Shown piece by piece: positions 18,917-64,000 of a stretch of DNA of 64,000 nt. Under the pieces are notes generated by a model that was not told the DNA's origin, did no database searches, and saw only the letters and a list, made by a program, of their open reading frames with translations. The DNA lies in NCBI RefSeq assembly GCF_022848905.1, contig NZ_JAFIRA010000006.1, positions 1 to 64,000 of the forward strand, in the 5' to 3' direction. Every line of letters starts with the position of its first letter. Within the stretch, counting starts at the first letter, position 1. The position numbers were made by a program, and so were the translations under genes. The DNA is from Thermostichus vulcanus str. 'Rupite' (lineage in GTDB: Bacteria > Cyanobacteriota > Cyanobacteriia > Thermostichales > Thermostichaceae).

Positions 18917-18940
18917 GCTTTTCCTCTCTCCTGACTGTCT

Positions 18941-20908: not shown

Positions 20909-22177
20909 TCAAGCAGAAGGCTGTGGGGTGGGGTCAGCTAGCGCATCTAGGGCGTCCTCCCGCAATAGCTTTTGATAATGCCGTATCAGTTCATCATTAA
21001 GAGTCTCCAAATCAAACACTCGTTCAACAAAACTGCGCCCAGCTCGGCCCATTTCCGGCCAACGTTCAGGGTGTTGAATGAGATCAAGCAACCGCTCGGC
21101 CAAAGCTCCGGGATCCCGCTCGGGGACCAGGAAACCTGAGAGGCCCTCTTGCACCAATTCTGGAATGCCCCCATGCCAGGTGCTGATCACCGGCAAGCCC
21201 ATTGCCATCGCTTCCTTCAGCACATTCACCGGCGCATCCTGGTTGCCATCGGCTGCCGTCACGCTGGGAGCCAAAAAGAGGTGCGAGCGCGACAAAATCT
21301 CAACAATCTCCGTTTGATTCTTTTGCCCCAGCAGATGAATCTGCTCCTGCATACCCAATTCCTGGATCAAGGCTTCCAGCAAGGGGCGCTGCTCTCCCTC
21401 TCCAATGATGTTGAACTCCAAATTCGGGTACGTTTTGGCCACCTGAGCCACTGCCTGGACGGCATCCGGGATCCCCTTTTTTTCCACCAATCGCCCTGTC
21501 AAGGCAATGCGCACCCGCCCATCTTCCGGGAAATGACGCACCTGAAAGGGAAACTGCTTCGGGTTCAGCCCTGAATAGAGCACCTTTAACTGCCCTGCAG
21601 GGCAACCCATCGCCAAGAGCCGCCGTTGAAAAAACCCACAGTTGGTCAAACACAAATCGGCAGCAGAAAAGAGTGTGTTGTAAACCGCCTCTCCCTGCTC
21701 CTGCACATATTGGCTGATGTCATGTCCTCGGAAGGAAACGACCAACTTGCCGCTATTGACTGCCTGAAAGGCGATGCCCAGCTCCCCCAAGGTGCCGAAC
21801 TGGCAATGAACAATGTCGTAAGGAGCCCTGCCAACAGCAGCCTGAGCAACCATTAAACGATCAGCCAGGGATCCCTCTGAGCCCCAAAAAACTCGTATCA
21901 AACGAGGTAGTCGGAAGGGATCCATCAGGCTCTGACGCAATAAAGTCTTGACAACGCGTTTCAGTTGGCCTGGCAGCGTTGTAGGCTTACCTGGCAAAAG
22001 ATAAGTGCATTTGAGCAAATCATAGGCAATAACCTCAGGGTGCAACTTGCTTTGCTCACCCAACCTACGAGTATAAATATCTACCTCATGCCCACGCCTG
22101 ATCAGGCCAACGATCTGGTTGATCACAAAGGTTTCGGAGAGGAGTGGGAAATGGCCCACAATCATCGCAATTCTCAC
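20909..22177 (-). CDS. Glycosyltransferase family 4 (GT-B fold)
   Basis: A 422-residue retaining glycosyltransferase. The N-terminal domain carries HFPLLSETFVINQIVGLIRR (typical of WcaL/AmsK-like enzymes) and FRGHDIS. The C-terminal Rossmann domain has VRIALTGRLVEKKGIPDAVQ, FNIIGEGEQRPLLEALIQEL, LHLFLAPS-like positions (SHLFLAPSVTAADGNQDAP) and the E-x7-E motif (VNVLKEAMAMGLPVISTWHG), whose second Glu contacts the donor nucleotide. The start is GTG 22177 after GAGGAGGAG. A 59-bp gap separates it from the GT2 gene. Confidence 0.88.
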   Translation of the reverse strand: MRIAMIVGHFPLLSETFVINQIVGLIRRGHEVDIYTRRLGEQSKLHPEVIAYDLLKCTYLLPGKPTTLPGQLKRVVKTLLRQSLMDPFRLPRLIRVFWGSEGSLADRLMVAQAAVGRAPYDIVHCQFGTLGELGIAFQAVNSGKLVVSFRGHDISQYVQEQGEAVYNTLFSAADLCLTNCGFFQRRLLAMGCPAGQLKVLYSGLNPKQFPFQVRHFPEDGRVRIALTGRLVEKKGIPDAVQAVAQVAKTYPNLEFNIIGEGEQRPLLEALIQELGMQEQIHLLGQKNQTEIVEILSRSHLFLAPSVTAADGNQDAPVNVLKEAMAMGLPVISTWHGGIPELVQEGLSGFLVPERDPGALAERLLDLIQHPERWPEMGRAGRSFVERVFDLETLNDELIRHYQKLLREDALDALADPTPQPSA

Positions 22178-22290
22178 AACTCCTCCTCACGGGGAAAACC
22201 CTTCTCTAGACCCATAGACCGCTACCAGCGAATTGCTCGGCACAAAGCTAAGTCACTTCTATCGCCTCAACCTTGAACAGTACATCTTTC

Positions 22291-23418
22291 TTAAGATTTA
22301 CTTAAGACTTGCCCTTGGGGAGGGATTTTCTCTTCGCACCAGTGGGATCCCCCTACCTTAGGGAGTCTTGTCTTCATGTTCACCAGAAGATTGGCAAGAC
22401 GTTCCAGATTAGCGCTGGGTTCTAATGCAGATAGATCCGGCCTCTCTCCAGTCAGAGAACGAGCGCTGATAGCCGCCTTAGCCAACGTAAGCGTAGAAAT
22501 CTCCCCGTCGTAAGTGATTACCCAATCAGACCCTACCGCTTCGACCAAATCGCAGGTAAACGGTACCCTTGGGGCAACGACCACACACCCACAGGAGAGG
22601 GCATGAATCAGCGCTCCGGAATGGAGAAAGTTACCATAGGGAGCAATGAACACATCCAAAGCTGTCAAGACCCGTTCGAACTCTTCTGAGGTAAGGCTGC
22701 CCGGTCTAAAATCTAATGCATCTCTAGTGTTTGAGAGCTTTGCGAGTGCGCTGTCAACGCCATCCTTGGCCAAACCAGCAATCAAAAGCTGAGAGCCAGG
22801 TGGCGCGATTTGCTCAAACCTCTCCGCCAACGGCACGAGTTTCTTGTAGGGCCTAAGCTGTCCAACATGCCCGTAAATCAATGCGGAAGATGTCAAACTC
22901 AGCTCTTGCCTAGCCTGCTCACAGTTGCCGCTATAGCTGATCAAATAAGGTGGATGCCAAATAAAGGCTTGAGGCTTTCTAGACAATTCTGGGTAGCGCT
23001 CAACCACCACTCCAGCAGTAGAGGGAGAGAGAGTGATCCACCCATCAATAAGTTGCAAAAGAGCACTCACGTAAACACCCCAAGCACGGTGGTGCTCAGG
23101 ATGGAGATCATGGGGTTGAAGGTTGTGCACAAACCAAAGTACCCGTGTGCCCCGTAACTTCAGAAACATTAAGTTTGTAACTACTTGTAAAATTGAAAAC
23201 CACAATTGGGTCGCTGACCTTGACGACCAAAAAATTGCATCAGGCCAATGGATGACAAAGAGGTCTGCCTTTTGGATTGAGGTCTTCCAAAAGGTAGGAT
23301 TACTGTTGCACACAGACATGCCCAGATGGGTTAGCATTCTACAGGCAGTGTCAACAAAAGCATTTTCATGGGGTGCAGCAGGCCAAGAAAATGCTACAGG
23401 CTTCCTACTGTTGCTCAA
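22291..23418 (-). CDS. Glycosyltransferase, GT-B type
   Basis: A 375-residue protein with VLWFVHNLQPHDLHPEHHR and LLQLIDGWITLSPSTAG in the acceptor domain, and a donor domain with IYGHVGQLRPYKKLVPLAER, GSQLLIAGLAKDG, LTALDVFIAPYGNFLHSGAL and HALSCGCVVVAPRVPF. The overall pattern fits GT4/GumI-like enzymes. The start is TTG 23418, overlapping the upstream stop (TTGA). This gene and the next two have fewer GGATCC sites and lower GC than the rest of the operon. A 113-bp gap follows before the GT4 gene. Confidence 0.8.
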   Translation of the reverse strand: MSNSRKPVAFSWPAAPHENAFVDTACRMLTHLGMSVCNSNPTFWKTSIQKADLFVIHWPDAIFWSSRSATQLWFSILQVVTNLMFLKLRGTRVLWFVHNLQPHDLHPEHHRAWGVYVSALLQLIDGWITLSPSTAGVVVERYPELSRKPQAFIWHPPYLISYSGNCEQARQELSLTSSALIYGHVGQLRPYKKLVPLAERFEQIAPPGSQLLIAGLAKDGVDSALAKLSNTRDALDFRPGSLTSEEFERVLTALDVFIAPYGNFLHSGALIHALSCGCVVVAPRVPFTCDLVEAVGSDWVITYDGEISTLTLAKAAISARSLTGERPDLSALEPSANLERLANLLVNMKTRLPKVGGSHWCEEKIPPQGQVLSKS

Positions 23419-24239
23419 ACTGAAGTATCCTCAAAACATTCATAGGGGAAAGCGGCAAGCATCTCTGATACGGAATACTCGGGTGGATCCGGACTCTGTC
23501 CATCCATTGCGGCCTGAACAGTTTCGTAGGAAGGATAGTGGGATCTTCCGGTTCCTAAGAAATAATCTTCATACTTGAAGCTTGGCTCCGCGCTTGATTT
23601 GAGCACTCTGACGGGCACCCCAAAAGCTTCAGCAACAACAATGCCATGGAGGGAGGAGCTGATGACTAGTTCACTTTGGGCAATGCGCCTAAGAATGCTG
23701 GACAGTGAGTCTGTGGGGCTTTTGAGCATAGTGGGTTGAACATTCAAAATCCTATCGTTTAAGTTACCAATTACCGTGATCTTGTGAATCCTAGTATTTC
23801 TGAGGGCCAGATATTCCGGGAAAAGATATCCGACTAGCAGTCCAGGATCCCCAAAAATCTTAGGAGCAAAAACGCCGCGCTCTGCCAAAAAAACATGAGT
23901 TAAGGGGCCACGCAGCATCCTCACGTCAAGGTTGCTGAAACGATGCTCCTCGCTCGAGATTTTCCCATTGCGACCACTTCCCCAGATAATGTCACCATTT
24001 TTTGCAAAATGAAGGATAGACCCTACGGTTAGGAGGGATTGATTGGCCGAGTCTGGATCTCCGGTGGTTCGGATTTTTCTTGTCACCCCTCTTTGAGCCA
24101 ATACTCTTTCCACAATGAGGGGGCCAAGGAGATCCCCAAAATTGTTGGGGCGACTGTAGAAGGGGAGATTCTTGCCAAACCTACCCTTCCACCGGCGCCG
24201 TTTGGGATTCCAGAAATACAAAGAAAGGGTTTGAGACAT
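23415..24239 (-). CDS. Polysaccharide pyruvyl transferase family protein
   Basis: A GT-B-like pyruvyl transferase, 274 residues, that would add pyruvate ketals to glycan sugars. NNFGDLLGPLIVERVLAQRG is the N-terminal signature, IWGSGRNGKI and VRMLRGPLTHVFLAERGV the central region, FGDPGLLVGYLFPEY the D-P-G/A-L-L motif, and SELVISSSLHGIVVAEAFGV the highly diagnostic S-x-R/S-L-H-G motif. I use ATG 24239 (a GTG lies at 24242). First gene of the polysaccharide operon on this strand. Confidence 0.85.
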   Translation of the reverse strand: MSQTLSLYFWNPKRRRWKGRFGKNLPFYSRPNNFGDLLGPLIVERVLAQRGVTRKIRTTGDPDSANQSLLTVGSILHFAKNGDIIWGSGRNGKISSEEHRFSNLDVRMLRGPLTHVFLAERGVFAPKIFGDPGLLVGYLFPEYLALRNTRIHKITVIGNLNDRILNVQPTMLKSPTDSLSSILRRIAQSELVISSSLHGIVVAEAFGVPVRVLKSSAEPSFKYEDYFLGTGRSHYPSYETVQAAMDGQSPDPPEYSVSEMLAAFPYECFEDTSV

Positions 24240-24242
24240 CAC

Positions 24243-29889: not shown

Positions 29890-30138
29890 GGAGACCCGAG
29901 ACAGAACACGCTTCCTACAGTCGAATCATCGAGCCGAAGACAGCAGGTGCCCACAGGCTTAATGTCCTGCCGAGGTTTGAGTGGAGTGCAGAGGGATCCT
30001 TTGCGGGTTCTTGTTCTGTCTGTTCTCGCCTCAATGCGTCTTGGCTTCGGCTGGGACGCATTCTGTTTTGAGCGACCGGGATCCACCCCCAAATGGAGCA
30101 ACACACAGGTTCATCCATTCAAATCAGGAGGTGAGCGC
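29890..30138 (+). promoter_or_regulatory. Ribosomal protein L10 leader (rplJ-rplL autoregulatory element)
   Basis: The 317-base gap between rplA and rplJ contains GAAGACAGCAGGTGCCCACA then GGCTTAATGTCCTGCCGAGG at 29935-29975. This is the conserved L10-binding core, with GCAGG (29943-29947) pairing with CCTGC (29966-29970). In other bacteria excess L10-(L12)4 binds this leader and lowers rplJL expression. The rest of the leader (29990-30090) holds GC-rich segments that could form alternative structures. Confidence 0.75.
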
Positions 30139-49797: not shown

Positions 49798-50346
49798 CTA
49801 GCTAGCTTCCTCATTATCTGTTGCACCAGCACAGGCAGGGTTGTTATCCTTACGAACTGTACCCAAAAGGGTACTGACTATGACACAACGATTTTCCCCC
49901 TGAGAATAGGTGCTGCTCACAACAAACCGACCCAAGAAACGGGCCCGACCCTCTGAGTCAAAAACAGCTCTTCCACCATTAAAGTTGTTGGCCACCGTTA
50001 CATAATTATTCAATCGAACTCGCTGACAAGAAGCCGGTTCATCACACAGAGCATTTTCATCTTCAATAACAAGCGTAGGCACGTTGGGATCCGTATTATC
50101 AACAGCAACCACCCAAGCTCTACCTCGTAGAGATGCTCTCGCATTGGTGCGGGCAGTACGTAAAGCTCTCTCAACACGATTTTGTGCATCATCCAACTGG
50201 ATCCGTGCCCATATGTTGATCCCAGACGGAATAGTGATCACAGCCAGAATGCCAACAATAACAATGACGGCCAAGACCTCTGTTAGCGTGAAGCCTCTTG
50301 CTCGAACAGTTCTACTCAGGCTAGACATCTTAATAGGGGCAAACAT
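49798..50346 (-). CDS. Minor pilin, GspH/FimT-like (hps-type pseudopilin)
   Basis: A 182-residue type IV pilin-like protein. The prepilin site is RARG/FTLTEVLAVIVIVGIL with Glu at +5, followed by one hydrophobic helix. The body has GspH-like beta features and Cys pairs (ALCDEPASC; NRCVIVS ... NPAC) that could form disulfides. GGGAG lies 9 bases before ATG 50346. Last of four genes reading from the giant protein at 59846; it would be processed by PilD and placed at a pilus tip or pseudopilus. Confidence 0.82.
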   Translation of the reverse strand: MFAPIKMSSLSRTVRARGFTLTEVLAVIVIVGILAVITIPSGINIWARIQLDDAQNRVERALRTARTNARASLRGRAWVVAVDNTDPNVPTLVIEDENALCDEPASCQRVRLNNYVTVANNFNGGRAVFDSEGRARFLGRFVVSSTYSQGENRCVIVSTLLGTVRKDNNPACAGATDNEEAS

Positions 50347-50375: not shown

Positions 50376-51482
50376 TCAGGCTTGTCGATTAAACACGCCA
50401 CGGGACAAAACCTGAGTTTGCATGGTTGTCAGATAGCGAGAGATCTGCTCTGCATCAACACTGGTTGCGTCCTGAATATATCGCCGGAAAAGGCCAGGAT
50501 TTGAGCGCTCCATAGCCGTCGCAGTGATATTAATAATCACATCCTGAGGTAGATTTGCAGCGGCACTGCGGCGAACACAGACATAAAAACCCACGTCATT
50601 TTCGTTCGTATTCAGTCCACTAAAAGTTACTGATGCAGGCTTACCTCCCCCAAACGCATATCCTTGAGGGCAAGCAGGAGCCACCTGTGGACTCCCTTGA
50701 CGGCTGCTAAAGATATTCGAGACTAAGGAACGTGGTACACCTCCAGTTGTACCTGCCTGATTGGCAATGGGAGTCTGATCATCCGGAACCCGAGGCCAAC
50801 TCAAGAAACCGGCCTGAAAGGGATCCGGATCCTCTACAAAGAATGGGCTACGGGCAGTACAGTCTTCATTGAAAGGTTGCAACTCAAAACGAGTAATCCG
50901 GGCATTTCCCTCCCAAGGAGTTGTTGAGCCATCCGCTAAATTGCCAGCATTATTGTAGTTACGTCGTAAGTAGTAAACCACTAAGGTGTATATGTTGCGC
51001 CTACGGCGAATATTTTCCCAATCACCTACATTGTTTGGCAAGAATCCAGCAGGTGGGTTGGCAGGTAAGATTGCGCGACCCTCTCGAATGTCCTGTAGTG
51101 TTGGATCGCCTGCATAACAGGCTTGAGGAATCGGGCTAAGTTTCCAGAAAGCAACAACAGGGATGCTTCCAGCAGGTCTGCGAATCCAACCTGGATCGTA
51201 AAGCTCCTCAATTAGATCAGGGATCCCATCTCCATTAGGCTGCTCAGCATCATTATAAATATAGAGCGCTTCGGCCAAATCTTGCTGAATATACTGCATA
51301 GCTTGGGTAAGCTCTGCTTGTACCTGAGTTCGCCCGGTCTCTTCTCGATCTACCCGCATCGTTTGGATAACGATGCCACCGGTGGCAGCTAGAAAGATGG
51401 ATGCCATCAATGCAGCAACCAACAACTCGATCAGAGTAAAGCCCAAAACACGCTTGAAGCTTTGGCGAAAGAGTTTACCCAT
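50376..51482 (-). CDS. Minor pilin, PilW/GspJ-like (hps-type pseudopilin)
   Basis: A 368-residue prepilin-type protein. KRVLG/FTLIELLVAALMASIF is the peptidase site and helix with Glu at +5. The large soluble part includes Cys pairs (PQACYAGD; NEDCTARS; PACPQG; FYVCVRRS) and ends without known enzyme motifs. Its size and helix fit PilW-like minor pilins, and its place in the cluster fits the pseudopilins encoded next to hpsA in filamentous cyanobacteria. It lies 29 bp before the GspH-like gene. Confidence 0.82.
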   Translation of the reverse strand: MGKLFRQSFKRVLGFTLIELLVAALMASIFLAATGGIVIQTMRVDREETGRTQVQAELTQAMQYIQQDLAEALYIYNDAEQPNGDGIPDLIEELYDPGWIRRPAGSIPVVAFWKLSPIPQACYAGDPTLQDIREGRAILPANPPAGFLPNNVGDWENIRRRRNIYTLVVYYLRRNYNNAGNLADGSTTPWEGNARITRFELQPFNEDCTARSPFFVEDPDPFQAGFLSWPRVPDDQTPIANQAGTTGGVPRSLVSNIFSSRQGSPQVAPACPQGYAFGGGKPASVTFSGLNTNENDVGFYVCVRRSAAANLPQDVIINITATAMERSNPGLFRRYIQDATSVDAEQISRYLTTMQTQVLSRGVFNRQA

Positions 51483-51537: not shown

Positions 51538-52281
51538 CTAAAGGCTAGGAACAGGAACAGGGAAGGCATCACAGCTATTAGTTGGGTTGGCAGTAGTAGC
51601 CAAAATTCCCCGACAAACATCTCCCAAATCAGCAGCCAAGTTAATTTCTAAAATTGAGCTCGCCATCGGAAACAGCCAAACATCGGCGTTGGCTAAGTTC
51701 TGATTAGCTGAAACTGACTCAGTCCGCAACCCAGGAAGCGCTTCTCGTGTCGCTTGGTTAAAAGAAAAACGGTGGTAAACCCTTACCCCCATCAAGAATG
51801 TGCAGGGGACTCCGACAATGACAGTGTTGTTGCGTCGGTCAATACAGTCTCCACCACTGTTTCGAAAGCTTTGGATGACATACTCCTCGGGGTTGCGCCC
51901 AGGCAGCTCAATTTGGGCCAAGCGAATAGAGTAATTTCCACCATCAGTATCCATATTGGCTGGCGGTGGGGTGCTATCTAAGGGATCCGCTCCAATTCTG
52001 GGTAGCCGAGCCAGTTGAACGGGATTCTGAAAAGCACCCGGACTCGCCGCTAGCTCCAGATCAACCAGAGTCCGAATGCGATCAACCTCTGCTTGGGCGA
52101 GTTGATTGGCGACTTCAACGCGCTCTGACATGGCACGACGATAGGCCACTAAGGTGAGGGCAGGGACAAGAGCCGCCATGGCGATGGCCACAATGATCAA
52201 AGAAGCCAAGACTTCGATAAGAGAAAACCCACCCTCTTGCCACCGATGGCGAAGGAGCAGCCAATTCGTCAACCGAGCCAT
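51538..52281 (-). CDS. Minor pilin, PilV/GspI-like (hps-type pseudopilin)
   Basis: A 247-residue prepilin-type protein. QEGG/FSLIEVLASLIIVAIAM carries the cleavage site and Glu at +5; the helix continues AALVPALTLVAYRRAMSERV. The soluble part has several Cys (GGDCIDRR; GVPCTFLMG; GDVCRGIL; NSCDAF). It lies 89 bp after the giant HpsA-like gene and 55 bp before the PilW-like gene. It would be an initiator or priming subunit of a pilus-like fibre. Confidence 0.82.
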   Translation of the reverse strand: MARLTNWLLLRHRWQEGGFSLIEVLASLIIVAIAMAALVPALTLVAYRRAMSERVEVANQLAQAEVDRIRTLVDLELAASPGAFQNPVQLARLPRIGADPLDSTPPPANMDTDGGNYSIRLAQIELPGRNPEEYVIQSFRNSGGDCIDRRNNTVIVGVPCTFLMGVRVYHRFSFNQATREALPGLRTESVSANQNLANADVWLFPMASSILEINLAADLGDVCRGILATTANPTNSCDAFPVPVPSL

Positions 52282-52370: not shown

Positions 52371-55300
52371 TCAGTTGAATTCTCCACAACCGCCAATTTG
52401 TGCAGCACCCTCCAGGTTGACTCCTGCCTGAGCCTGTAAGGCACAGCGTAGGCGACGCACATACGGATCCTGTGGATCCAGTTCCCGCAAGAATTCTGTG
52501 CGGGTATTGGAGGGGAATTGGAAACGAGCCGACACAGGGCTGAAGCGACGGGCAATTTGCAAACCGACATCGTAGCCAAAGCGGCGGTTGGGTGGGAAGT
52601 AATAATCAAACCCAAGGACATTCGTTGGATCGGCCACCAGATTAGGCGGCTCAAAACTTCGCTGCAGGAATGGCCCGGTTGCATAGGTGCTGTAGTTCAG
52701 TTGAATCATGGATCCACTGAAGAACAGATCCTGATTCCGCCACAGCTCATTCAGGCGCAAGAAGTTGTGCATCCCACCACTGGGTTGGTTAAGCCGAGGG
52801 GGAACAATACCGCTAATGGCAACCGCATTGACCCGCGTTGACGAAGCCGGTTGCAACTGATAGTTGGTAGTTCCGTTATCATTGCGGCGTCGATTGGCAA
52901 GGGTGGCGGAGGCCAATTCTTGGAAATTGGGGATCGGTATCGGGCGGCGGGTCACTTCATCCAGAATCACGCCCAAAACTGGGTTGGTACCCGCAAAGCC
53001 AGTTGTTGCCGCATTGATGTTGAGCGTAAACGGCTCAACATTCACCCATTCCTGCTGTCCACCATCGCTGCCGTTGCGATCAACCTGAATCTGGATCGCA
53101 TTCCCACTCGGCTTGACATAGAAGCAGAGCCCATTCTGAATGCTCTCTACACCTTTATCGTCGATGTAGTAACCGTCCAGATAGGTAGAGGTCGGGGTGT
53201 AGGTTTGGGCCGTAGCGTTGTTCACACGGGCATAGGGGTTCAGCACCATCTGAGGTTGTACGCCAGGGATATTCCCAAACAGAGGATCCCGATCAACAAC
53301 AATATTGACGGTTGGATCTTTAGGATCAGGGACAAATTTTAGAGTGCTGGGGCGGCTGGCACCTGTATAGGCCGTGTACTTAAAGGTGGTATTGAAGTTG
53401 GGTCGGAACACTCCCGGCACCCAGAAACCTTTATCGATAGGATTAACCTCCTCTTCTCCACAGCGAATTTCTCCGCTGCTGTTGAGGAGTTGCCGCCGCA
53501 GTTGCCGCGCCCAATTATCGGTACCCGCAGCAGGAGTTCCGGGAATCTTAGCTCCAATATTCTCGGCGGGTCGGATGCCGGGTTCTTTGCTAGGATTGGC
53601 AATTTGGCTCGAAAGCAAGCCACTGGTTAAGCCATTGCGGGCGGCATAGGCTGGCTCTCCAAATACCCAATTAAAGGCAGCTTGCAAGGCTTCCGATACA
53701 CTCGGCCAGTGGGGTTCTACTTTGGCAGCTTTCACTTCCAGAACAGGTGAAAGCTCCGGCTGTAGAGCAATCGTTACACCTTCGGGAACAGGAGGGACAG
53801 CGGCTACTGTATTGACACTGATGGTCTCCGGCTCCGGCTCCACTTCAATTTCCCAAACCGGGCGCAGATCAAGAGTGTTGGGCTTAACGGCTACCCGTTC
53901 TCCCAACGGTGTGTCGAAGGGGGAGTCGGGAGCAAACGTAGTAGGTCCACAGGGCTTGCCGGTGCAGGTGATCGTCTGGGTCTCGGTCTTGGTGGCCGAA
54001 CAGGTGGGGCTGCTACCAGCAGCTAGAGTACCCGTTCGGGTTTGGTTGAGAGGCTGGCTGGTGCCGCAGGCAATAGTCAGGCTGTCGCAGGTAGGAGACC
54101 AAGGCCCGTACTCGTAATTGCACGTAGCTGGGCAAGTAACGGTTTGGCTTTGGCTTTCGGTATAGCTCCCTTTACAGACCGAAGTACAGGTGCGAGAACG
54201 AGTCTGGGTCACCTTGGTGCCACCATTGGCCACAGTACAGGCCGGACTCCAATCCGACCAGTTGCCACAAGTTGGGCTAGGTGGTGAGCAGGTGATGGTT
54301 TGGGTTTCAGTTTGGGTGAAGGGAGGATTGGTCGTACACAGAGGAGTGACTGTGCGGCTACGGGTTTGGGTAATCTGAGTCCCATTGCACTGCTGGGTTT
54401 GGGTACAAGCGGGCGACCAAGGCGACCAATTCCCATAAGTAAATTGAGGCTGACAGGTGACTAGTTGAGTTTGTGGTGTAGGAGGAGTACCAGGACATCC
54501 CGCAGGGAGCGTGGCCGTTTTGGTTTGGGTGATGGTGGTTGCAACACAGATTGTCGTATCACAGGCGGGTCCCCAACCAGTCCAAATGGGATCACAGTTC
54601 AGCGACGCAGCACATTTGGCTTGAACGGAGGGATCCTTGACGGTTTTGGTTTGATCCGGCTCACAGGGTTTGTTGACCGGCGGTATCGGTTTCAAATAGC
54701 GCAGATCGTAGCTTTCTGCAGATTGGCCATCGGGGTTGGTGCTAAAGCGAACAAAGGCATTCCCTCCGTTTTCGTAGGCTTGGATTTCCACTAGGTAAGG
54801 GGAGGGCTGGGATGGATCCGCACACTCCAACTCCACCCGTAAAGTCGTCTGGGCATTACCACTATCAAACCAAGACTCCACCCCGGCAGCATTCGGCCCC
54901 AAGTTCAGGAAAGTCCCACTCCCTGCTGAAGCATTTCTGAAGGTGGCTGTAGAGGCATCCCGCCGCCGAATCACAATTCTTCCGCCATCATCCGTATTCA
55001 GGTTGTAGTTCACCAATCCCGGATAACGGGGATAAAGCTCACCCACCCAGCGCACAACGAAAAAGTCATTCCCCTGGTTATTACCGCTGGGGCTTCCCCC
55101 ACTTCTGCGCCGCCAGCAAGAACGCAGATGGTTGAATTGATTGGCTTCAAAGGTGAAGTCCACTACACCATTGTTGGGAGGATTATTGTTATAGGCAATG
55201 CGAGGATTGCCCAGGGGCACATAGGAGTAGCCAATATCATCGGCATCGATGACCAGGCCACCTGTCTCGGGTTCACCACAACTGGGATCCCAGAAGAAAT

Positions 55301-58300
55301 CCCCACGATCCCGGCGATCTGGATCGGGATCCGGAGGGATGAAAGGAGCTACAGGGGGCCAAGGATTCGGAGGAGAGAGAATGGGCACCGACAGACGACA
55401 GGTGGGTAACAAGATATCAGCCAGAGAGCCGTTACAAGAAGTCAGTGCGTTGTTGTACAGTCGCCGCTTGAAGGGCGAGTTGGAGTCTATGGAACCACTA
55501 CCACCAAACTGGTAGTTAAAGCCTCCCCAGCTGGGGAAAGAACCTTCACTGCGAGCAAACCCTGCCAGATTGCTGACATTGTTGATGGCATCCCGCACAC
55601 AGGCCCATCTCTGCGCCGTGGTTGCTCCGCTGGCGAAGCTACAGGTGGGAGCACCTGTAGAGGCACCCACATTTTCAGGGATCCCTTGACCCGGATAAAT
55701 CGGATCCGGCCAGCGCACCGAACGCAAATAGGGCAGGTTGGCCGTTCGGGCAGCTGAATCCAACGGGCCAGCATTGCCGGTGGCCGCAAAGTTCGTTCCA
55801 TTGCGGTTGTACTGGTTCTGAGGACTGGAGAGCCAGCCGTTGTAGTACTCGGCCAGCAACCCAGACCCATTCGGCACAGGGCAAGGCCCAGGCGGAGCTA
55901 CCATCACCCAACGGGAGGTGTCTATCACCGGGTTACCCAGGGCAGAGATGCGGGTACCGAAGGCGGCATAGCCCAGATCGGGTGCTCGCAACTGCCGCAC
56001 CTGCGGCACTCCGCCTCCCGCTGTTCTGTCATCGTTGCTGGGATCCCCATCCGTATTGTCAAAGCGGGCAAAGACTGTATCTCTAGCAAACAGATCTGGC
56101 CAACCAGGCTGGTTGGTGTTGTTACCTAGGTTTTGCGCACCGCCGGTATTGTCAAAGCGAAGTACCCCTGCTCCTGCATTGTTGGGATCCGGAGCCGGCC
56201 AATTGTTGCCCCTGATCACCAGGGCTTGGTTGAGGAAGGAGGTATTGGCTCCCAAATTAGGCCCAGTGCAGCCGTAGTATTGGTTACGACGGGGAGCAGA
56301 AGCGCGTCCACTTTGATAGTCTCGATTCGCCACAAAGCTAGAACCACCCCCATTGAGGGTGCCATCCTGAATCAACCCATCGTCAATGCTGCCATCACAG
56401 AAATCTGATGAGAGGATATTCACCGAATCTCCCAAAATGTCAGCGGGCCGCCATAGATCCCCTAGAGCACGGGCAAAGTTCGCATTTTCATTTTGACGAA
56501 GCCGACCGTAGAAGTTGTTGTAGAGGCCATCTCCACCGAAAGTGAGCAAATTCGTAAATTCTTCCAGACGATTCCCATTAGCGTCTTGGTGGAGGTTAAA
56601 GTCCCCTTGAATGTAAACAGGGTTATCGGAGATAAAGGACAAACCAAATATAGCCTCGTCTGGATTTAAGCCTCCCCGCCGCAATACCGCCCCATTCCGC
56701 AGTCGGAATCCATAGGGCCGCCGATCCGGGTCGGCGTAGTAGTCCACTGGCTTTGGACTTAAGCCTGTGTTATCGGGAGGTACGTTGGATACTGGGGGAT
56801 CCCAAACTGTTTGGTTATTAACCGTACCCCGACCTGGCTGTCCTGCATTCATCACGCCAGCGCTACCCAACTCCCCTCTGGCATTGTTGTTGCGCCAGGC
56901 GGTTTGGTAACCGGCAAAGTTTCCAAGAGGTGGGCGTGCAATAGCATCTTCTCGCACAGCATCTTCCCGGAAGGCATAGAAAATCCCCCCTTCCCGATTC
57001 TCTTCAATCCCAGCAGGTAACCAGGTATCGCCACCAATTAGACCGTTGGCTTGATTGTTGACGTTGTTGGTCAGTAGAGCCAAGTCCACATTCAAGGCCC
57101 GAACCGCCATTGCTTCGCGCCCATCGTAAAAAACAGAATCCTTGAAGGGCACGCGATGACACTGTGTACCAATCCGAATCAGTTCAAACTGGTTGCTGTT
57201 AGGGCCTGGCTCAATTCCCCCAGATCCAGAAGGACAAGCTTGGGGCGCATGGGGCAAGGCCCAGTTGCCAATTCCAGCTCGAGGCTGTAAAGCAACTTGG
57301 CTTAAGTCATTTACAGCTTGATATCTGACTCTGTTAGGCAAGAAGGAGTAGGCTGCGCGTCGCTCTGTCTCTAGTGGATCCGTCTCATCAAAGAAAGAAG
57401 TAGTTGAAGGAGTGATTGGGAAGATATAGCGCAGAGGCAAGTAAAAACGATGAACAGGTTCCCCAGTAGCAGAATTGGTGTCTCGCTCCCCTCTCCGGCT
57501 TGCGTCAATGTCATTCCATAGGATCTGGGCTGCCGGATCCCCTTCCTCAGCAGCAGTCTGAATACGCAGGATATTGTCTGCCAACATCCCCAGCATGCAA
57601 CCTGCCGTTTGCAGAGTGGTCCGATCTGCCAAACTCAGCCCATTTAGATTGGCCGGGTCATTGTTGACAATCTCAATGGCTCGCCGCAGTTCCGAGAAGT
57701 TCCCAAAGGCAGTGATGAACGGATCCGGATGAATCCGTCCCGGCTCTTGGGTGGGAGGAAAGGCCCCTTGGGGATCCCCGGCGAAATTGGCCAAGTTGGT
57801 TAAGGCCGTCCACAGGGGAGTACCAGGAGTCAACCGATTCTGCATAGGAGCAGGATCATATTCCCAAACATTGGTTCCCTGACCTGTGAAGAAGTTGATC
57901 CCCAACTGATTGGTTTGGCTACCTAAGGGGAAAGTAGAGGCTCGTCTCAAGCTATCTGGGGAAGCAGGGTGAGCCACTGTCGCCAAACAGGCTACAGGGA
58001 AATTTCCATTATTTTGGCTGTAGTGATAAACAGCAGTTGCTTGAACTGCTGCTGGATTGTCTCGAAGGGTTAGGCGCTGCCGTGCTTCGTTGCTGATGAA
58101 AAAGGGCTGCAAACCCGTTAACTCGCTTGTAGGGGGAACCAGAGGCAAGGGCAGAGTATCTGTCCGAGTGAGTTCCAACCGCTGTCCAACAATGACCCGT
58201 AAGCCTTCAAACCGAGAACGTCTCTCCCAATAACCATCTAGCCCTACTTCAGACAAAGCCCCTGGAGCAGGGTTTTCCGCGGTTAAGGATTCATTCTGGT

Positions 58301-59846
58301 TATTTACAGCAGTTCCAGGAATCAATTCACCTGCGGTTTGATTAAAAGTTGCTGCAAAAGTTGGGACATCACAACCAGTATTGGGATCTGGTGTGATGGG
58401 TGGTCGGTCATAACTGGCTTTGGGACCAAATCGATTGTCCGCCCGATATACATCATCCACATAGGGGGGACAAACCTGTGTTGGGCCAGCTTCAAAACCA
58501 CCTGCATCCACACGTCCCGGTGGCCCAGAAGTGGGGCTTCTCCTTACATTAATGGGAGAAGTTGCCCACCCCTCAGGATCACGTGTATAGCTTCCTCGAT
58601 TACGAGTTCGGCCAAAAAGCTGAAGCTCGAGAGGATCTAGCGCTACATTCTCAGGAGTTGTACCGTTTTGAACCGAATCAAAATTCAGATTGTTGAGGCG
58701 CGGATAGGGTTGGCTCGGCTCTACATCCGCCAAGCCAGGGTGTGCATCGAAGATTAAATTGTCACTCGCTTCCTCTCCCGCATATCCAATAGCTCCTGCA
58801 ACCAGTTCTCCAAAGGCTTTAATTTCGGAGTTATCTGCAGGCATGTAGAAGCAAGACTGCTCGGAGCTAATGGTAAAGGCGCGAAACAGATTATTCGGCC
58901 CATAGCGGAAGAAGAGACTCCCTCCGGCATAAATGGCTCCGTTCCAGTTGTAGCCGGGAGTGAAGAAATACTCCATGTCTCCCCGACTAAATGCCCCCCA
59001 CTTATTCAACAAATCTCGCCGACGATCCTGCTGAAATTGCAAAGCAGAAATGGCGCGAGTTGTGGAGTCAGCCCCTTGAACCGGTAGAGTGACTGCATAA
59101 ACCTGGAAAGGCTTGTACAATGCAGAGCCAACTTGAAACCAGTCGCCGACATTAGGGTTGACGGTTTGGTCGGTCGGAGCATCTGTACACCCTGCTAAGG
59201 CTGACCCTTGCAGTGGGCCACTGCGGATCATTAACCGACGCGCCCGCTCAGTATCGGTCAAATCGTTGTCTTCAAAATCATTACCGGCAGCCCGACGCGT
59301 GCTGAGAATCGTATAAACGGTTACAGAGTCATCGGTGCCATTGTTGTCAGTGTCCACCAAGAACCACCAAGCGGGTGCCCGCACTGGGACATTAACAAAA
59401 TTCCCAGAATTAGGGGGATCCTCCACCTGAATATCAGTGGTGATCACAAATTGATTTTCATCAGGTAAGATATAAGGCTCGTCATCATTCCTAGTGACAA
59501 GAACCCCATCATTAATCAGAGCTGAGGAGAACTGAGCATCTGTGGGGGCACTGTTGGGAAGACGAGGATCCCGAATCAGGAAATCAATCTTGGCTCTAGC
59601 CCGATCAATGGCTGCATTTAGCTGTCGGCTAACGGTTTGGCCAGCCCGCTCCACTTGAGTTTGCACACTGCGCTGAGTCGAGCGGGTCAGCAAGCCCACC
59701 GTTACCAAGCTCAGAACAAGAACGATGAGAATTGCAATTGGCAGAACAAAGCCCTTCTGCCGAATCTTGTGGCGACTCACCCGTGTCTTCAAGGAGCCAA
59801 GCAAGCGCAGGGTAAGCTTGAGCAGCAGGGTGGAAGGAGCAGGCAT
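52371..59846 (-). CDS. Giant HpsA-like prepilin/adhesin with PA14-like and TSP1-like modules
   Basis: A 2,491-residue protein. The N-terminus RQKGFVLPIAILIVLVLSLV then TVGLLTRSTQ with AAIDRARAKIDFL matches HpsA (hormogonium polysaccharide) proteins and PilX-like prepilins; the hydrophobic helix is at 33-53. The body is Asn/Pro/Gly-rich and extracellular in style. A PA14-like module begins near 1322 (NGSGLLAEYYNGW) and, after an insert of about 190 residues, ends near 1700 (VRWVGELYPRYPG, YNLNTDDGGRIVIRR). Four W-x-x-W-x-P-x-C thrombospondin-like repeats fill about 1740-1965. The last 500 residues include FYVKPSGNAIQIQVDRNG. It heads the pilin operon. Role: probably a surface or tip protein for adhesion, motility or exopolysaccharide. 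Confidence 0.8.
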   Translation of the reverse strand: MPAPSTLLLKLTLRLLGSLKTRVSRHKIRQKGFVLPIAILIVLVLSLVTVGLLTRSTQRSVQTQVERAGQTVSRQLNAAIDRARAKIDFLIRDPRLPNSAPTDAQFSSALINDGVLVTRNDDEPYILPDENQFVITTDIQVEDPPNSGNFVNVPVRAPAWWFLVDTDNNGTDDSVTVYTILSTRRAAGNDFEDNDLTDTERARRLMIRSGPLQGSALAGCTDAPTDQTVNPNVGDWFQVGSALYKPFQVYAVTLPVQGADSTTRAISALQFQQDRRRDLLNKWGAFSRGDMEYFFTPGYNWNGAIYAGGSLFFRYGPNNLFRAFTISSEQSCFYMPADNSEIKAFGELVAGAIGYAGEEASDNLIFDAHPGLADVEPSQPYPRLNNLNFDSVQNGTTPENVALDPLELQLFGRTRNRGSYTRDPEGWATSPINVRRSPTSGPPGRVDAGGFEAGPTQVCPPYVDDVYRADNRFGPKASYDRPPITPDPNTGCDVPTFAATFNQTAGELIPGTAVNNQNESLTAENPAPGALSEVGLDGYWERRSRFEGLRVIVGQRLELTRTDTLPLPLVPPTSELTGLQPFFISNEARQRLTLRDNPAAVQATAVYHYSQNNGNFPVACLATVAHPASPDSLRRASTFPLGSQTNQLGINFFTGQGTNVWEYDPAPMQNRLTPGTPLWTALTNLANFAGDPQGAFPPTQEPGRIHPDPFITAFGNFSELRRAIEIVNNDPANLNGLSLADRTTLQTAGCMLGMLADNILRIQTAAEEGDPAAQILWNDIDASRRGERDTNSATGEPVHRFYLPLRYIFPITPSTTSFFDETDPLETERRAAYSFLPNRVRYQAVNDLSQVALQPRAGIGNWALPHAPQACPSGSGGIEPGPNSNQFELIRIGTQCHRVPFKDSVFYDGREAMAVRALNVDLALLTNNVNNQANGLIGGDTWLPAGIEENREGGIFYAFREDAVREDAIARPPLGNFAGYQTAWRNNNARGELGSAGVMNAGQPGRGTVNNQTVWDPPVSNVPPDNTGLSPKPVDYYADPDRRPYGFRLRNGAVLRRGGLNPDEAIFGLSFISDNPVYIQGDFNLHQDANGNRLEEFTNLLTFGGDGLYNNFYGRLRQNENANFARALGDLWRPADILGDSVNILSSDFCDGSIDDGLIQDGTLNGGGSSFVANRDYQSGRASAPRRNQYYGCTGPNLGANTSFLNQALVIRGNNWPAPDPNNAGAGVLRFDNTGGAQNLGNNTNQPGWPDLFARDTVFARFDNTDGDPSNDDRTAGGGVPQVRQLRAPDLGYAAFGTRISALGNPVIDTSRWVMVAPPGPCPVPNGSGLLAEYYNGWLSSPQNQYNRNGTNFAATGNAGPLDSAARTANLPYLRSVRWPDPIYPGQGIPENVGASTGAPTCSFASGATTAQRWACVRDAINNVSNLAGFARSEGSFPSWGGFNYQFGGSGSIDSNSPFKRRLYNNALTSCNGSLADILLPTCRLSVPILSPPNPWPPVAPFIPPDPDPDRRDRGDFFWDPSCGEPETGGLVIDADDIGYSYVPLGNPRIAYNNNPPNNGVVDFTFEANQFNHLRSCWRRRSGGSPSGNNQGNDFFVVRWVGELYPRYPGLVNYNLNTDDGGRIVIRRRDASTATFRNASAGSGTFLNLGPNAAGVESWFDSGNAQTTLRVELECADPSQPSPYLVEIQAYENGGNAFVRFSTNPDGQSAESYDLRYLKPIPPVNKPCEPDQTKTVKDPSVQAKCAASLNCDPIWTGWGPACDTTICVATTITQTKTATLPAGCPGTPPTPQTQLVTCQPQFTYGNWSPWSPACTQTQQCNGTQITQTRSRTVTPLCTTNPPFTQTETQTITCSPPSPTCGNWSDWSPACTVANGGTKVTQTRSRTCTSVCKGSYTESQSQTVTCPATCNYEYGPWSPTCDSLTIACGTSQPLNQTRTGTLAAGSSPTCSATKTETQTITCTGKPCGPTTFAPDSPFDTPLGERVAVKPNTLDLRPVWEIEVEPEPETISVNTVAAVPPVPEGVTIALQPELSPVLEVKAAKVEPHWPSVSEALQAAFNWVFGEPAYAARNGLTSGLLSSQIANPSKEPGIRPAENIGAKIPGTPAAGTDNWARQLRRQLLNSSGEIRCGEEEVNPIDKGFWVPGVFRPNFNTTFKYTAYTGASRPSTLKFVPDPKDPTVNIVVDRDPLFGNIPGVQPQMVLNPYARVNNATAQTYTPTSTYLDGYYIDDKGVESIQNGLCFYVKPSGNAIQIQVDRNGSDGGQQEWVNVEPFTLNINAATTGFAGTNPVLGVILDEVTRRPIPIPNFQELASATLANRRRNDNGTTNYQLQPASSTRVNAVAISGIVPPRLNQPSGGMHNFLRLNELWRNQDLFFSGSMIQLNYSTYATGPFLQRSFEPPNLVADPTNVLGFDYYFPPNRRFGYDVGLQIARRFSPVSARFQFPSNTRTEFLRELDPQDPYVRRLRCALQAQAGVNLEGAAQIGGCGEFN
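53945..54610 (-). repeat. Four thrombospondin-type-1-like repeats inside the giant gene
   Basis: Each unit has the form [NG]-W-S-x-W-S-P-A-C ... Q-T-[RK]-[ST]-x-T ... C ... T-E-[TS]-Q-[TS]-[IV]-T-C. Visible cores are WTGWGPACD, GNWSPWSPAC, GNWSDWSPAC and YGPWSPTCD, with closing segments TQLVTC, TETQTITC, ESQSQTVTC and TETQTITC. TSP1 repeats in known proteins bind glycans and matrix and form three disulfides. Confidence 0.75.
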
Positions 59847-60001: not shown

Positions 60002-60598
60002 TTACAAAAGGCCCAGTTGTTGGGCCTTAAATAGGGCGGTGACGCGGTCGCTAGCCTCTAGTTTGCGGTAGGCGGTGCTGGCATATTCCTTCACGGTTTC
60101 AATGCTCAGGCCGAGGCGACGGGCGATCTGTTTGTTGGCTAAGCCCTCCATCATCAGTTGCAGCACACACAGCTCGCGGGGGGTTAGTTTGGGCAGCTCT
60201 TGTTTGGCGGGTAACCAATCTTGTTCTGGTGCAGCCAAGATGTGCCGGATCATCTGGGCCAAGTCTGCCGGATCGGTTTCTTTGGACAGGTAGCCTTTGG
60301 CCCCCGCTTGGCGGGCTGCTTCGATCAAGGCCGGCTCTTGAAAGGTGGTCATCAACAGCACTACCAAGGGCAATCCCATCTCGGTAATCTGCTGGCAGGC
60401 AACAATACCATCTCCATCCGGCATCCGCACATCCAAAATGGCGACATCAATCGGGGCCTCTCGGCAACAGCGCACCGCCTGGGATCCCGTTTCTGCTTCT
60501 GCTACGACCTCAAACCCTTGCGCTTGCAGAGCAAACTTCAACCCCAGCCGGAACAGGGGATGATCGTCGGCGATGAGAATGCGAACGGGAGAGCTCAT
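60002..60598 (-). CDS. NarL/FixJ-family response regulator
   Basis: Two-domain regulator of 198 residues from ATG 60598. The receiver has Asp11-Asp12, phosphoacceptor Asp56 (AILDVRMPDGDG), the LLMTTFQ Thr and the YLSKETDP Lys. The LuxR-type helix-turn-helix is LTPRELCVLQLMMEGLANKQ IARRLGLSIETVKEYASTAY. The upstream ORF extension to 60649 has no family resemblance. A TnpB element of 1.3 kb separates it from the histidine kinase gene upstream on the same strand; without the element the gap would be about 80 bp, so the pair was probably one operon. Confidence 0.9.
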   Translation of the reverse strand: MSSPVRILIADDHPLFRLGLKFALQAQGFEVVAEAETGSQAVRCCREAPIDVAILDVRMPDGDGIVACQQITEMGLPLVVLLMTTFQEPALIEAARQAGAKGYLSKETDPADLAQMIRHILAAPEQDWLPAKQELPKLTPRELCVLQLMMEGLANKQIARRLGLSIETVKEYASTAYRKLEASDRVTALFKAQQLGLL

Positions 60599-60659
60599 GC
60601 CAGGAGGGATCCCAGGTGGAAGGTGGGCTGATCCTAGTCTGCCCAGCAACAGAACCCTA

Positions 60660-61962
60660 TTGACACTCCCCCGGTTAGAAACCGGGGGATTCTCCCTTCT
60701 AGCTCCCCACAGCTTGAAGTTGTGGAGGATTCATGGAGTTCAGGGGATTGCCAACTACCCCATCCCCTGAGCCGACCCTGCCTATTACGGGCAGGGCTTC
60801 TTTTAGACTCAAGGGACACGAAAAGCCGTCCCACCGAGCAATGTTTATTGCGGCATTCCAGTCCGCGTCACAGCAATACCCGTCCTGCCCAGTGAACAGA
60901 TGCCCACTCCTTTTCCCAATCAATCCTGTCCTGTGGTCGGTTTTGGATGTGTAGGCAGCCGGACGCTTGTGCAGCGTCCTACCCGCCATTTCCAGCTTGT
61001 AGGCAACCTTCCACTCCAGGTCGTAGTACGACCAGGTATGGCGCGATTTCCCGGCATCCGAACGCGCCTTCTGGCTCTGTCTGGATTGGCGGATACCCGA
61101 GAGGTCTTCCATCCACACATCTGCATTTACCGCATTGGCAAACCGTACAATGCGACGGCTAACGGTGTGGTTGACCGCCCTCATCCAACGGGCTTCTTTG
61201 CGCTCCAGTCGCTTGAGTGCTCGGTATTTACCCGCCTGTTGCAACTGGGCACGACGCTTCTGGAAACGCCGACGACGATAGGCTACCTCTCCACCCCCAA
61301 AAAACACCGCCCGACCCCAACGGGTGGCCGCCACTGCCAAACGGTTCTGCCCACGGTCAACACCCAGCCGCTCCGTACTCTTCACTTCGGGAACTTCCCA
61401 AGTGATAGATACAACCGCGTACCAACAGCCCCGTAGCTTCATGAGTTTCAAGGTTCCCCGTTCACAATCCTGTTCGGCCAGGATGCGCTCAAGACGCTCG
61501 GCATAGTAGGAACTGCTAACCTCAAGGGGAACCCGCTTGTCACCCTGAATCGTGGGAAAACTCACCGAGTAGGTGCTACCTACTTTGTGCAGCTTCCAGT
61601 TTTGGTTGTTGACCTCTGGCCAGAACACTTTGAAGTGCTTGACCCGCTGGCCGGCTTTCCCCTTCAGGACACGAATCACCTGGTTGGAGAGGGCCGACTT
61701 GAGTGGTGTCACCACTTTGGCGGTTGTCAAGGCTTTTCGTTCCTTCGGACTGATGCGGAGCAGTTCGTTTGCCAGTGCGGTTGTCGCACAAACCGTCTGG
61801 TTAAACATCTCTGCTTTGACCGCATTGAGGTCAAGAAACTTGAGCTTGAGTGTCGTGGTGACCCGTTTCATGGGGACTATTGTACTGTTTCTGTTGCTGA
61901 ATAAATTCAGCCTGTGCGCTTATATCCCCCGGTTAGAAACCGGGGGCTTTACGCTGCTCTTC
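60660..61962 (-). mobile_element. Complete TnpB-only IS200/IS605-group element
   Basis: About 1.3 kb with one gene (tnpB) and no tnpA. A 21-base hairpin, CCCCCGGTT-AGA-AACCGGGGG, occurs identically at both ends (60668-60688 and 61926-61946). Reading the element strand, the right end closes with GTGTCAA (TCAA at 60663-60660) and TTAC lies just before the left end (61966-61963), the tetranucleotides I recall as IS608-type cleavage sites. There are no inverted terminal repeats or target duplication, as expected. The element would need a TnpA in trans to move. Confidence 0.8.
60699..61871 (-). CDS. tnpB: TnpB-family RNA-guided nuclease, zinc-finger cysteines missing
   Basis: A 390-residue OrfB/TnpB. 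The RuvC-like catalytic residues are visible: Asp172 (LGVDRG), Glu255 (VWMEDLSGI) and Asp335/337 (CCDADWNAAINIA). The insert that normally holds a C-P-x-C-G ... C-x-x-C-G zinc finger reads YTSKTDHRTGLIGKRSGHLF then TGQDGYCC, so the usual four Cys are absent apart from a CysCys pair. The N-terminus and the basic helix FQKRRAQLQQAGKYRALKRL are normal. The start is ATG 61871. The C-terminal tail runs to 30 bases before the right-end hairpin, leaving the omega RNA region overlapping the gene end. Confidence 0.88.
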   Translation of the reverse strand: MKRVTTTLKLKFLDLNAVKAEMFNQTVCATTALANELLRISPKERKALTTAKVVTPLKSALSNQVIRVLKGKAGQRVKHFKVFWPEVNNQNWKLHKVGSTYSVSFPTIQGDKRVPLEVSSSYYAERLERILAEQDCERGTLKLMKLRGCWYAVVSITWEVPEVKSTERLGVDRGQNRLAVAATRWGRAVFFGGGEVAYRRRRFQKRRAQLQQAGKYRALKRLERKEARWMRAVNHTVSRRIVRFANAVNADVWMEDLSGIRQSRQSQKARSDAGKSRHTWSYYDLEWKVAYKLEMAGRTLHKRPAAYTSKTDHRTGLIGKRSGHLFTGQDGYCCDADWNAAINIARWDGFSCPLSLKEALPVIGRVGSGDGVVGNPLNSMNPPQLQAVGS

Positions 61963-61979: not shown

Positions 61980-64000
61980 TCACTGAGGTTGTAGAGGCAA
62001 CTCCAAAATAAAGCGGGTTTCGTTCTGCTCACTTTCGGCCCTAAGGGATCCCTGGAGGCGTTCGGCAACTTTTTGGCTTAAGGCCAAGCCCAGACCCGTA
62101 CCCCCATGTTTCCACGGATCGTTGTTGGGCACCCGGTAAAACTTATCAAACACCCGCGCCAGTTCTTCTGGGGGAATGACCACGCCTGTATTCACCACCT
62201 GCAGTTGCCAAGTATTCTCCAGAAATGCAACGGAGACTGTGATCCGTTCCCCGGCTGGGGTGTACTTGCAGGCATTGGTGAGCAGCTCTGTGAAAAGCCG
62301 CTCCAGATACCCTGCAGAGGTGATGATGGGGGGCAGCCTTTCTGGCAAAAACAGGGTGAGGCTTTGGGCGTGGGAGGCAGCCCGTTCCCGAAAGGGATCC
62401 AACTGTCGGGGCAGCCAGTCTTGGAGGTTAAGGGTGTCCCATTCCAGCGGTTGGGTATTGGCATCGAGGCGGGAAAGTTCCAAAAGGTCGTTGATCAAGT
62501 TGGTTTCTCGGGCACATTCCTGGTCGAGAATTGACAAATAGCGTTGGATGAGCGCTTCATTTTCGCCAGAAATATCGATTCGATCCAGCACCAGCGAGAG
62601 CATCTTGGCAGCCATTTTGATGCTGGCCATCGGGGAACGCAACTCATGAGAAACCGTGCTGAGGAAATCATCCTTTAGTTGGTTCAGTCGCTCCAGTTCT
62701 TGCACTTGGGCCAGAGAGGCTTTGTAGAGACGGGCTTGTCGCAGGGCAATGGCACATTGGTTGGCCACCTGCTGAATCATCCGCACTTCCGCATCGCTGA
62801 ACACCGCCAATGCGGGCTTGTAAAGCCACATATCCCCCAAGACTTGGTGCTCATCCTGAAGGGGGCAACTGAGCACCGTAAATCGTTCTGCGGGATCTGG
62901 GGAAGGGTTGCGATAGGAAGGGCTTTCCCGCAGACAAAATTGTATCGACTGGCCCTGCAAAAGTTGGTGATACAGATCGGGAAAGTCCTGGAAGGCGGTT
63001 ACTTTGCCCAAGGCAGGCAACAATCCTGGGCTATTGAGGTTGAGATATTCGTGATTGATCGTTGAGGATTGACTGTCGTGGTGATAGAGAGCGGTATCGC
63101 AGCAAATGATCTGAAGTTGACGGCCTAATTCTTCGACCGCAGTTTGTAGAATGTAGTCTTCATTCAGGCTGTCACGCACTTTTTCGATGATGCCTTTGAC
63201 CAGAGATTCAAACTCGAGGGCCTGTCGTAGTTGTCGGGTGCGCTCATCCACCATGTCTTCTAGGTCGGTGTTTAGTTGGCGTACCTGTTGGTAAAGCTGA
63301 GATTGGTGAATGGCGATGGCCACTTGGTCGGCTAAATGTTTGAGGAGATCCACCTCATGATTTTGCCAGTGGCGAGGGCCACGACAATGATGGGCGATCA
63401 ACAAACCCCACAGGGATCCCTCTTGCAAAATCGGCACCACCAAATTGGCCCGCACCTGATGTTGCTTGAGCAACTGAACATGGCAGGGATTAAGACCAGC
63501 AGTTTCTATATCTTCGATGGCTTTGACACGCCCTTGCTGATAAGGCGCAACAAAGGACTGGGCAAAGCAATTGTCATAAATGTTGGATCCTAAAATCGGT
63601 CGCCAGGGATCCGCTACAGCCTCGGTGACCACATCTCCACTCCAATCGGGCCGAAAGCGGAAGATAATGACCCGATCTGTTTGCAGTAGGGATCGTACTT
63701 CCGAAACGGTTGTGTTAAGAATTTGATCAAGATCCAAAGATTCACGGATGTGATGAGAAATTTCTGTAAGCAGCTTCGTTTGTTGCAGTTGCTGTTGTAA
63801 CGCTTGTTCCGTCGTTTTTAGTAGGCCGATATCTTGCGTGTTGCCAATGATGCGGATGATCTGTCCTTGCGGATCCCGTAGAGCTACCCCTCGATCCAAC
63901 ACAAACACATCAGATCCATCTCGATGGCGAACCCGGTATTCACACTGAAATTGGTCTTGCTTTCCGGCAAAAAGCTGTTCAAACTCAGCCATACAAGCCG
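61980..64000 (-). CDS. Cyanobacteriochrome-like sensor histidine kinase (5' end beyond the window)
   Basis: The reading frame is open at the right edge; the ATG at 63992 gives 670 residues but the true start is probably outside. Order, counted from that ATG: end of a PAS/PAC domain (1-60); GAF1 (about 80-235) with the DXCF motif Asp140-Asn-Cys142-Phe and Cys170-His171 in GLNPCHVQLL, and RANLVVPILQEGSLWGLLIA, all cyanobacteriochrome marks; GAF2 (about 275-425); HisKA with His449 (FLSTVSHELRSP); ATPase N-box LLTNACKYTP and G2 box HGGTGLGLALS. The G1 box reads VVNTGVVIP, with Asn at the usual Asp. Predicted blue/green-type bilin photosensor acting with the NarL-type regulator downstream. Confidence 0.85.
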   Translation of the reverse strand, partial: ACMAEFEQLFAGKQDQFQCEYRVRHRDGSDVFVLDRGVALRDPQGQIIRIIGNTQDIGLLKTTEQALQQQLQQTKLLTEISHHIRESLDLDQILNTTVSEVRSLLQTDRVIIFRFRPDWSGDVVTEAVADPWRPILGSNIYDNCFAQSFVAPYQQGRVKAIEDIETAGLNPCHVQLLKQHQVRANLVVPILQEGSLWGLLIAHHCRGPRHWQNHEVDLLKHLADQVAIAIHQSQLYQQVRQLNTDLEDMVDERTRQLRQALEFESLVKGIIEKVRDSLNEDYILQTAVEELGRQLQIICCDTALYHHDSQSSTINHEYLNLNSPGLLPALGKVTAFQDFPDLYHQLLQGQSIQFCLRESPSYRNPSPDPAERFTVLSCPLQDEHQVLGDMWLYKPALAVFSDAEVRMIQQVANQCAIALRQARLYKASLAQVQELERLNQLKDDFLSTVSHELRSPMASIKMAAKMLSLVLDRIDISGENEALIQRYLSILDQECARETNLINDLLELSRLDANTQPLEWDTLNLQDWLPRQLDPFRERAASHAQSLTLFLPERLPPIITSAGYLERLFTELLTNACKYTPAGERITVSVAFLENTWQLQVVNTGVVIPPEELARVFDKFYRVPNNDPWKHGGTGLGLALSQKVAERLQGSLRAESEQNETRFILELPLQPQ

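Follow-up and report, generated by a model that had tools for sequence, protein, structure and literature searches.

Many type IV pilins are modular, and lectin, vWA and PA14 modules on them are widespread (PMC8179133). PilB and PilC of Streptococcus sanguinis are class III prepilins of about 50 kDa in which a vWA or ConA-like lectin module follows a small pilin, and both have been argued to belong to a tip complex (PMC8179133, PMC9934059). The HIJK minor pilins are encoded in one operon and cap the pilus tip, with a K subunit that has no Glu5; PilA of S. sanguinis has Pro4 and likewise lacks Glu5 (PMC9934059). Among cyanobacteria, Synechocystis cannot flocculate without its minor-pilin operon pilA9-slr2019 (PMC6755745), and in hot springs piliated Thermosynechococcus ties Chloroflexus filaments into aggregates (PMC11434263). 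HpsA, a prepilin family described from hormogonium-forming cyanobacteria, was previously termed functionally unknown (PMC4284469).

Here we describe a member of that family from Thermostichus vulcanus str. 'Rupite', encoded on the reverse strand at 52371..59846 of the window, by which we mean the whole stretch of DNA analysed, 64,000 nucleotides in length. Like PilB and PilC of S. sanguinis, it starts as a class III prepilin onto which a candidate binding module has been grafted; unlike them, it holds a PA14-like module and a series of repeats resembling those of thrombospondin (TSR-like repeats) inside a protein of 2,491 residues. The association of PA14 with pilins in general is already known (PMC8179133). 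The literature searched yielded no HpsA protein that combines PA14 with TSR-like repeats.

HpsA and the prepilins encoded beside it

The open reading frame begins with ATG and runs without an internal stop, and its product is a member of the HpsA family. The NCBIfam model NF038301 matches it with an E-value of 1.5e-153 and 513.3 bits, above the curated cut-off of 400, in three blocks, all on the reverse strand: residues 13-768 (block 1; 57543..59810, model positions 28-720), residues 907-1157 (block 2; 56376..57128, model positions 881-1073) and residues 2317-2474 (block 3; 52425..52898, model positions 1317-1487). The HMM search bears out the original prediction of an HpsA-like N-terminus, block 1 beginning at residue 13. 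The same prediction had seen an oddity in the presence of a hormogonium-type protein in what looked like a unicellular organism. That part of it falls away: HpsA matches occur in 51 of the 59 genomes sampled from relatives and in 37 of 42 genera, above the cut-off in 38 genomes, so that HpsA is nothing odd here and the "hormogonium" name is misleading.

As in the HpsA of hormogonium formers (NF038301; Npun_F0066 type), there is a prepilin start, with putative relatives of hpsB and hpsC encoded downstream. The class III leader, residues 1-32 (59751..59846, reverse strand), ends in HKIRQKG immediately before FVLPIAIL. The resulting G-F-V-L-P motif occurs in 37 of 38 aligned HpsA proteins; Pro4 is present in all of those 37, Glu5 in none. 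Next comes the pilin alpha-1 helix, approximately residues 33-91 (59574..59750, reverse strand), transmembrane at first and then amphipathic, which the AF2 model of residues 1-1195 renders as a 57-residue helix covering residues 35-91. A prepilin-like helix at the N-terminus had been expected, and leader, motif and model agree with it.

Three further prepilins, each with Glu5, are encoded directly downstream of hpsA on the same strand. HpsB (51538..52281) is GspI/PilV-like, matching NF038303 with an E-value of 1.9e-11 (44.3 bits, below the cut-off of 150) and the PilV model TIGR02523 at 1.5e-4; its best generic matches are ComGE and PilV, GspI being weaker. HpsC (50376..51482) is GspJ-like, with E-values of 3.9e-27 for NF038304 (95.7 bits, below the cut-off of 200) and 1.3e-4 for GspJ. 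For both, gene order and best match fit the names given. The fourth gene (49798..50346) encodes a GspH-like prepilin, with matches to TIGR01708 (6.9e-6) and TIGR01710 (2.3e-6) and a match to PF07963 above its cut-off. Pilins of the H, I and J types are thus co-encoded with HpsA, the individual assignments being weak matches, and the order HpsA-B-C-H recurs in loci of the same genus and in several distant cyanobacteria. Judged by sequence, the set made up of HpsA, HpsB, HpsC and the GspH-like pilin has the apparent anatomy of a K-I-J-H pilus-tip complex.

The published HIJK pilins form one operon, cap the tip and include a K subunit without Glu5 (PMC9934059). HpsA likewise lacks Glu5, has Pro4 and is encoded together with I-, J- and H-like prepilins, from which we infer that it is the K-equivalent; it is probably a minor pilin of the pilus tip. 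With GspK/PilX, the K of HIJK, it shares the lack of Glu5, a bulky ectodomain and the co-encoded H-, I- and J-like prepilins; it differs in that the gene order here is K-I-J-H and in that the HpsA core has no structural match in the PDB. A Foldseek search of the PDB with the core model (residues 1-1195) returned no match, the best E-value being 0.14, and revealed no GspK-like ectodomain fold, so that K-subunit equivalence rests on the sequence motif and the operon, not on the fold. A known pilin-tip or PilY1 fold for the core was considered and is unsupported by the same search. A PilY1 model searched against the organism's own genome found no match, the controls being equally silent. The genome encodes a homologue of the PilB-type motor ATPase that scores below the model's own cut-off. 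The Synechocystis pilA9-pilA10-pilA11-slr2018 operon, required for flocculation (PMC6755745), similarly combines minor pilins with one further gene.

Directly upstream of hpsA and on the same strand lies a response regulator gene (60002..60649; receiver motif IADDHPLF). It holds the same place in all five same-genus loci compared (L034-L038), making it a candidate for control of the pilin genes. A histidine kinase is encoded further on, at 61980-63992, and the space between the two genes holds an open reading frame (60699-61871) that, as judged from its sequence, resembles a TnpB-type transposase of IS200/IS605. A promoter scan of the operon region returned fewer sites than shuffled sequences did, and no promoter is therefore claimed for the operon.

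Modules inserted between HpsA blocks 2 and 3

What distinguishes this protein from the HpsA of hormogonium formers is how far block 3 lies from block 2: by hand calculation about 1,050-1,175 aa, both in this genus and in G007, compared with 33-263 aa in most other HpsA proteins that have both blocks in one frame. The PA14-like and repeat modules occupy about 650 residues of the insertion (1316-1966).

The PA14-like module is split. Its first half, residues 1325-1382 (GLLAEYYNGW ... RWPD; 55701..55874, reverse strand), is marked by invariant residues in an alignment of seven sequences, and its first strand (GLLAEYYNGW) stands well ahead of the core, residues 1560-1728 (FFVVRWVGELYP...DDGGRIVI...YLVEIQAYENGGNA; 54663..55169, reverse strand). 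The splitting insertion of about 180 residues, 1383-1559 (55170..55700, reverse strand), is predicted to have no stable structure, with pLDDT mostly below 40, and is much shorter in the relative L040. Pfam searches with the whole protein and with pieces of the module detected neither PA14 (PF07691) nor TSP1. A profile of the seven sequences over residues ~1530-1735, however, matches PA14 proteins of solved structure (6qe7, E-value 3.1e-8; 6qdi, 9.4e-6), and the relative in G006 (L039) provides a bridge to PF07691 with a sub-threshold match (E-value 0.0075; 16.5 bits, gathering cut-off 24). In the AF2 model of the insertion, built from only seven sequences, residues 1595-1720 form a beta-rich PA14 core of moderate confidence (block pLDDT ~54-82). 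Foldseek matches the model to the sugar-binding PA14 domains of 6m8m, Epa1A and MpAFP with probabilities near 1.00 and E-values of about 2e-3 and worse; for 6m8m the probability is 1.00, the E-value 1.7e-3 and the TM score by target length 0.43. The RsgI PA14 domains (6qe7, 6qdi) are similar by profile, and 6qdi together with the RTX and yeast adhesins (6m8m, MpAFP, Epa1) by fold, whereas the module here differs from all of them in its split by some 180 residues and in lying below Pfam detection. Profile, Pfam bridge and fold all agree with the split module foreseen in the original prediction, and we are confident that a PA14-like module is present. A DDG pair, which in PA14 lectins forms the site for calcium and sugar, is kept in most members of the genus, absent in L040 and altered in L039. 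PA14 domains are known in non-lectin contexts as well.

Exactly four repeats of about 45-50 aa, spaced 50-56 aa, follow on the reverse strand. A profile built from the repeats (A7) identifies them at residues 1754-1798 (54453..54587, E-value 1.6e-14), 1804-1853 (54288..54437, 2.4e-20), 1860-1905 (54132..54269, 9.9e-18) and 1912-1961 (53964..54113, 5.5e-17). Each runs from W..W.P.C through I-T-Q-T-R to a Thr-rich strand ending in Cys, the pattern being partly degenerate. Within the 256-residue region the motif W..W.P.C is found three times; none of 20,000 shuffles had as many, the maximum being one. The W..W..C of strand A and the R.R of strand B of TSP1 are present, in degenerate form in repeats 1 and 4; repeat 4 reads YGPWSPTC. 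Across relatives, P, C, Q and C positions are invariant and the W..W / TQTR pattern is retained; clear copies number two to four among genus members and three in G007.

The AF2 model predicts a three-strand layout for the repeats with pLDDT of ~80-88. For the whole model, Foldseek returned three PDB matches with E-values below 0.001, all of them to properdin (3.3e-6 to 1.5e-4). For both modules, model and structure search yield the folds that had been predicted. The thrombospondin repeats of properdin share the predicted three-strand layout together with W..W..C and TQTR.R, but no sequence match, and here only the first and last cysteines are invariant: two over 21 repeats, not the six that form three disulphides in TSP1. 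The TSP_1 profile (PF00090) found no sequence match in the repeats, the repeat profile found nothing beyond a chance match among PDB sequences, and a TSR query found no match among plasmids and phages. The TSP_1 model also found nothing in 386 cyanobacterial genomes, an absence that is weak because the controls were silent too. With no sequence link to TSP1 and two invariant cysteines, the repeats are called TSR-like rather than TSP1. Of the four TSP1-like repeats originally predicted, the count and the predicted fold stand; sequence does not show membership of the TSP1 family. On the strength of the model, a TSR-like fold is likely for all four. The TSR fold is best known from adhesion proteins of animals and parasites.

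The insertion is carried by orthologues in five same-genus genomes, and G007, from another genus of the same family, has a diverged version. In G006, from a third genus, the PA14 part is present and the contig then ends; its hpsA breaks (end of L039, start of L053) at a proline-rich stretch just past PA14. When a profile of the whole insertion was searched against 386 cyanobacterial genomes, the combination of PA14 and repeats was absent from other families; two other matches covered PA14 only, in one case (L060) in a protein where Pfam clearly detects three PA14 domains. Another genus (G030, G057) has HpsA proteins of 3,160 aa (L042) and 2,822 aa (L045) with big insertions near the same site. 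Neither insertion gave a PA14 or TSR signal, and they were rejected as instances of the same arrangement. Modules may be exchanged at this site of HpsA more generally.

Proposed role and competing explanations

By analogy with other modular pilins, the Synechocystis flocculation operon and piliated Thermosynechococcus, this HpsA would most likely act at the pilus tip as an adhesin, with glycans of the mat, or of slime made by the cell itself, as its targets. The large pilus-tip or surface adhesin of the original prediction thus survives as the likeliest role, the function itself being a presumed one. We think it reasonably probable that HpsA is a giant, tip-capping K-type minor pilin into whose ectodomain a lectin-like PA14 module and a TSR-like stalk have been inserted; for glycan adhesion as such, the balance tips only a little in favor. 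In the mechanism proposed, prepilin peptidase would remove the 32-residue leader, and the alpha-1 helix would assemble with HpsB, HpsC and the GspH-like pilin into a tip complex, where HpsA, having no Glu5, would take the top position and prime the pilus. Extension of the pilus would carry the PA14/TSR arm outward, PA14 might bind a glycan of the mat, of slime or of a neighboring cell, and retraction would then pull cells together or along a surface, with a putative part in aggregation or motility. It is a tentative idea, and a rather doubtful one, that functional bacterial TSR-type repeats beside a lectin module on a pilus-tip subunit serve mat building and phototaxis as an arm that binds ligands.

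That the open reading frame is an assembly chimera or a decayed gene might be supposed from two MAGs of other genera in the same family (G006, G007), in which hpsA is broken across contigs or frames. This explanation is refuted by the existence of full-length orthologues of 2,413-2,505 aa in five further genomes, including the single-contig assemblies G001 and G005, and by dN/dS values for hpsA far below 1, and its probability is negligible. The HpsA head has dN/dS values of 0.07-0.09; those of the insertion, where they can be estimated, mostly lie at 0.11-0.22, and one short piece of 76 codons gives 0.28-0.33 in two pairs. Because synonymous changes approach or exceed saturation in several of the pairs, these values are rough. 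The insertion is kept as protein under purifying selection, and it evolves faster than the HpsA core. That faster evolution, the copy number of two to four, the lack of a TSP1 sequence match and the proline stretch that may take the place of the repeats, wholly or in part, in the G006 relative would all suit repeats that serve as a disulphide-braced, Thr/Pro-rich spacer, their TSR likeness convergent, projecting PA14 and binding nothing. To this we give slightly less than an even chance, as the unchanging residues P, C, Q and C, the W..W / TQTR pattern kept across relatives and dN/dS near 0.12-0.22 where estimable weigh on the other side. A spacer role is in any case compatible with a tip adhesin and does not exclude one.

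HpsA might instead be a pseudopilin that resides in the envelope and takes part in polysaccharide secretion, its PA14/TSR arm guiding or sensing the cell's own exported polysaccharide. The literature on hps genes of Nostoc and the family name tie hpsA-D to polysaccharide secretion (PMC6495340, PMC4284469), a glycan made by the cell itself could be the ligand of PA14, and the genome encodes several glycosyltransferases. However, the operon has no hps glycosyltransferase gene next to it, the best match to HpsE in the genome reaches 77.8 bits against a cut-off of 300, and a 2025 review regards polysaccharide export through the pilus pore as unproven (PMC12288463). Nor does the guiding of polysaccharide by itself account for the anatomy of a tip set, and we consider this explanation unlikely.

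The lack of Glu5, the presence of Pro4 and the I-, J- and H-like prepilins encoded alongside suggest that HpsA proteins as a whole family would cap the tip of cyanobacterial pili, and the lineage-specific PA14/TSR insertion would provide a natural module-swap system for pilus function. TSR folds, if confirmed, would be unusual for a bacterial pilin and would make convergence or transfer of the fold a question to study.

Other features of the window

About 30 kb from the pilin operon, positions 17615-24242 hold ABC exporter genes and glycosyltransferases, in appearance a surface polysaccharide locus. A perfect 24-bp tandem repeat of 3.4 copies, TGGCCTCCGGCCCACTGGCGTGAA, lies at 13827-13908, inside an ABC transporter ATPase open reading frame (13453-14682); it is in frame and encodes a repeating GLRPTGVN. 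A ribosomal protein L10 leader RNA (RF00557, 64.1 bits) is found at 29916-30074.
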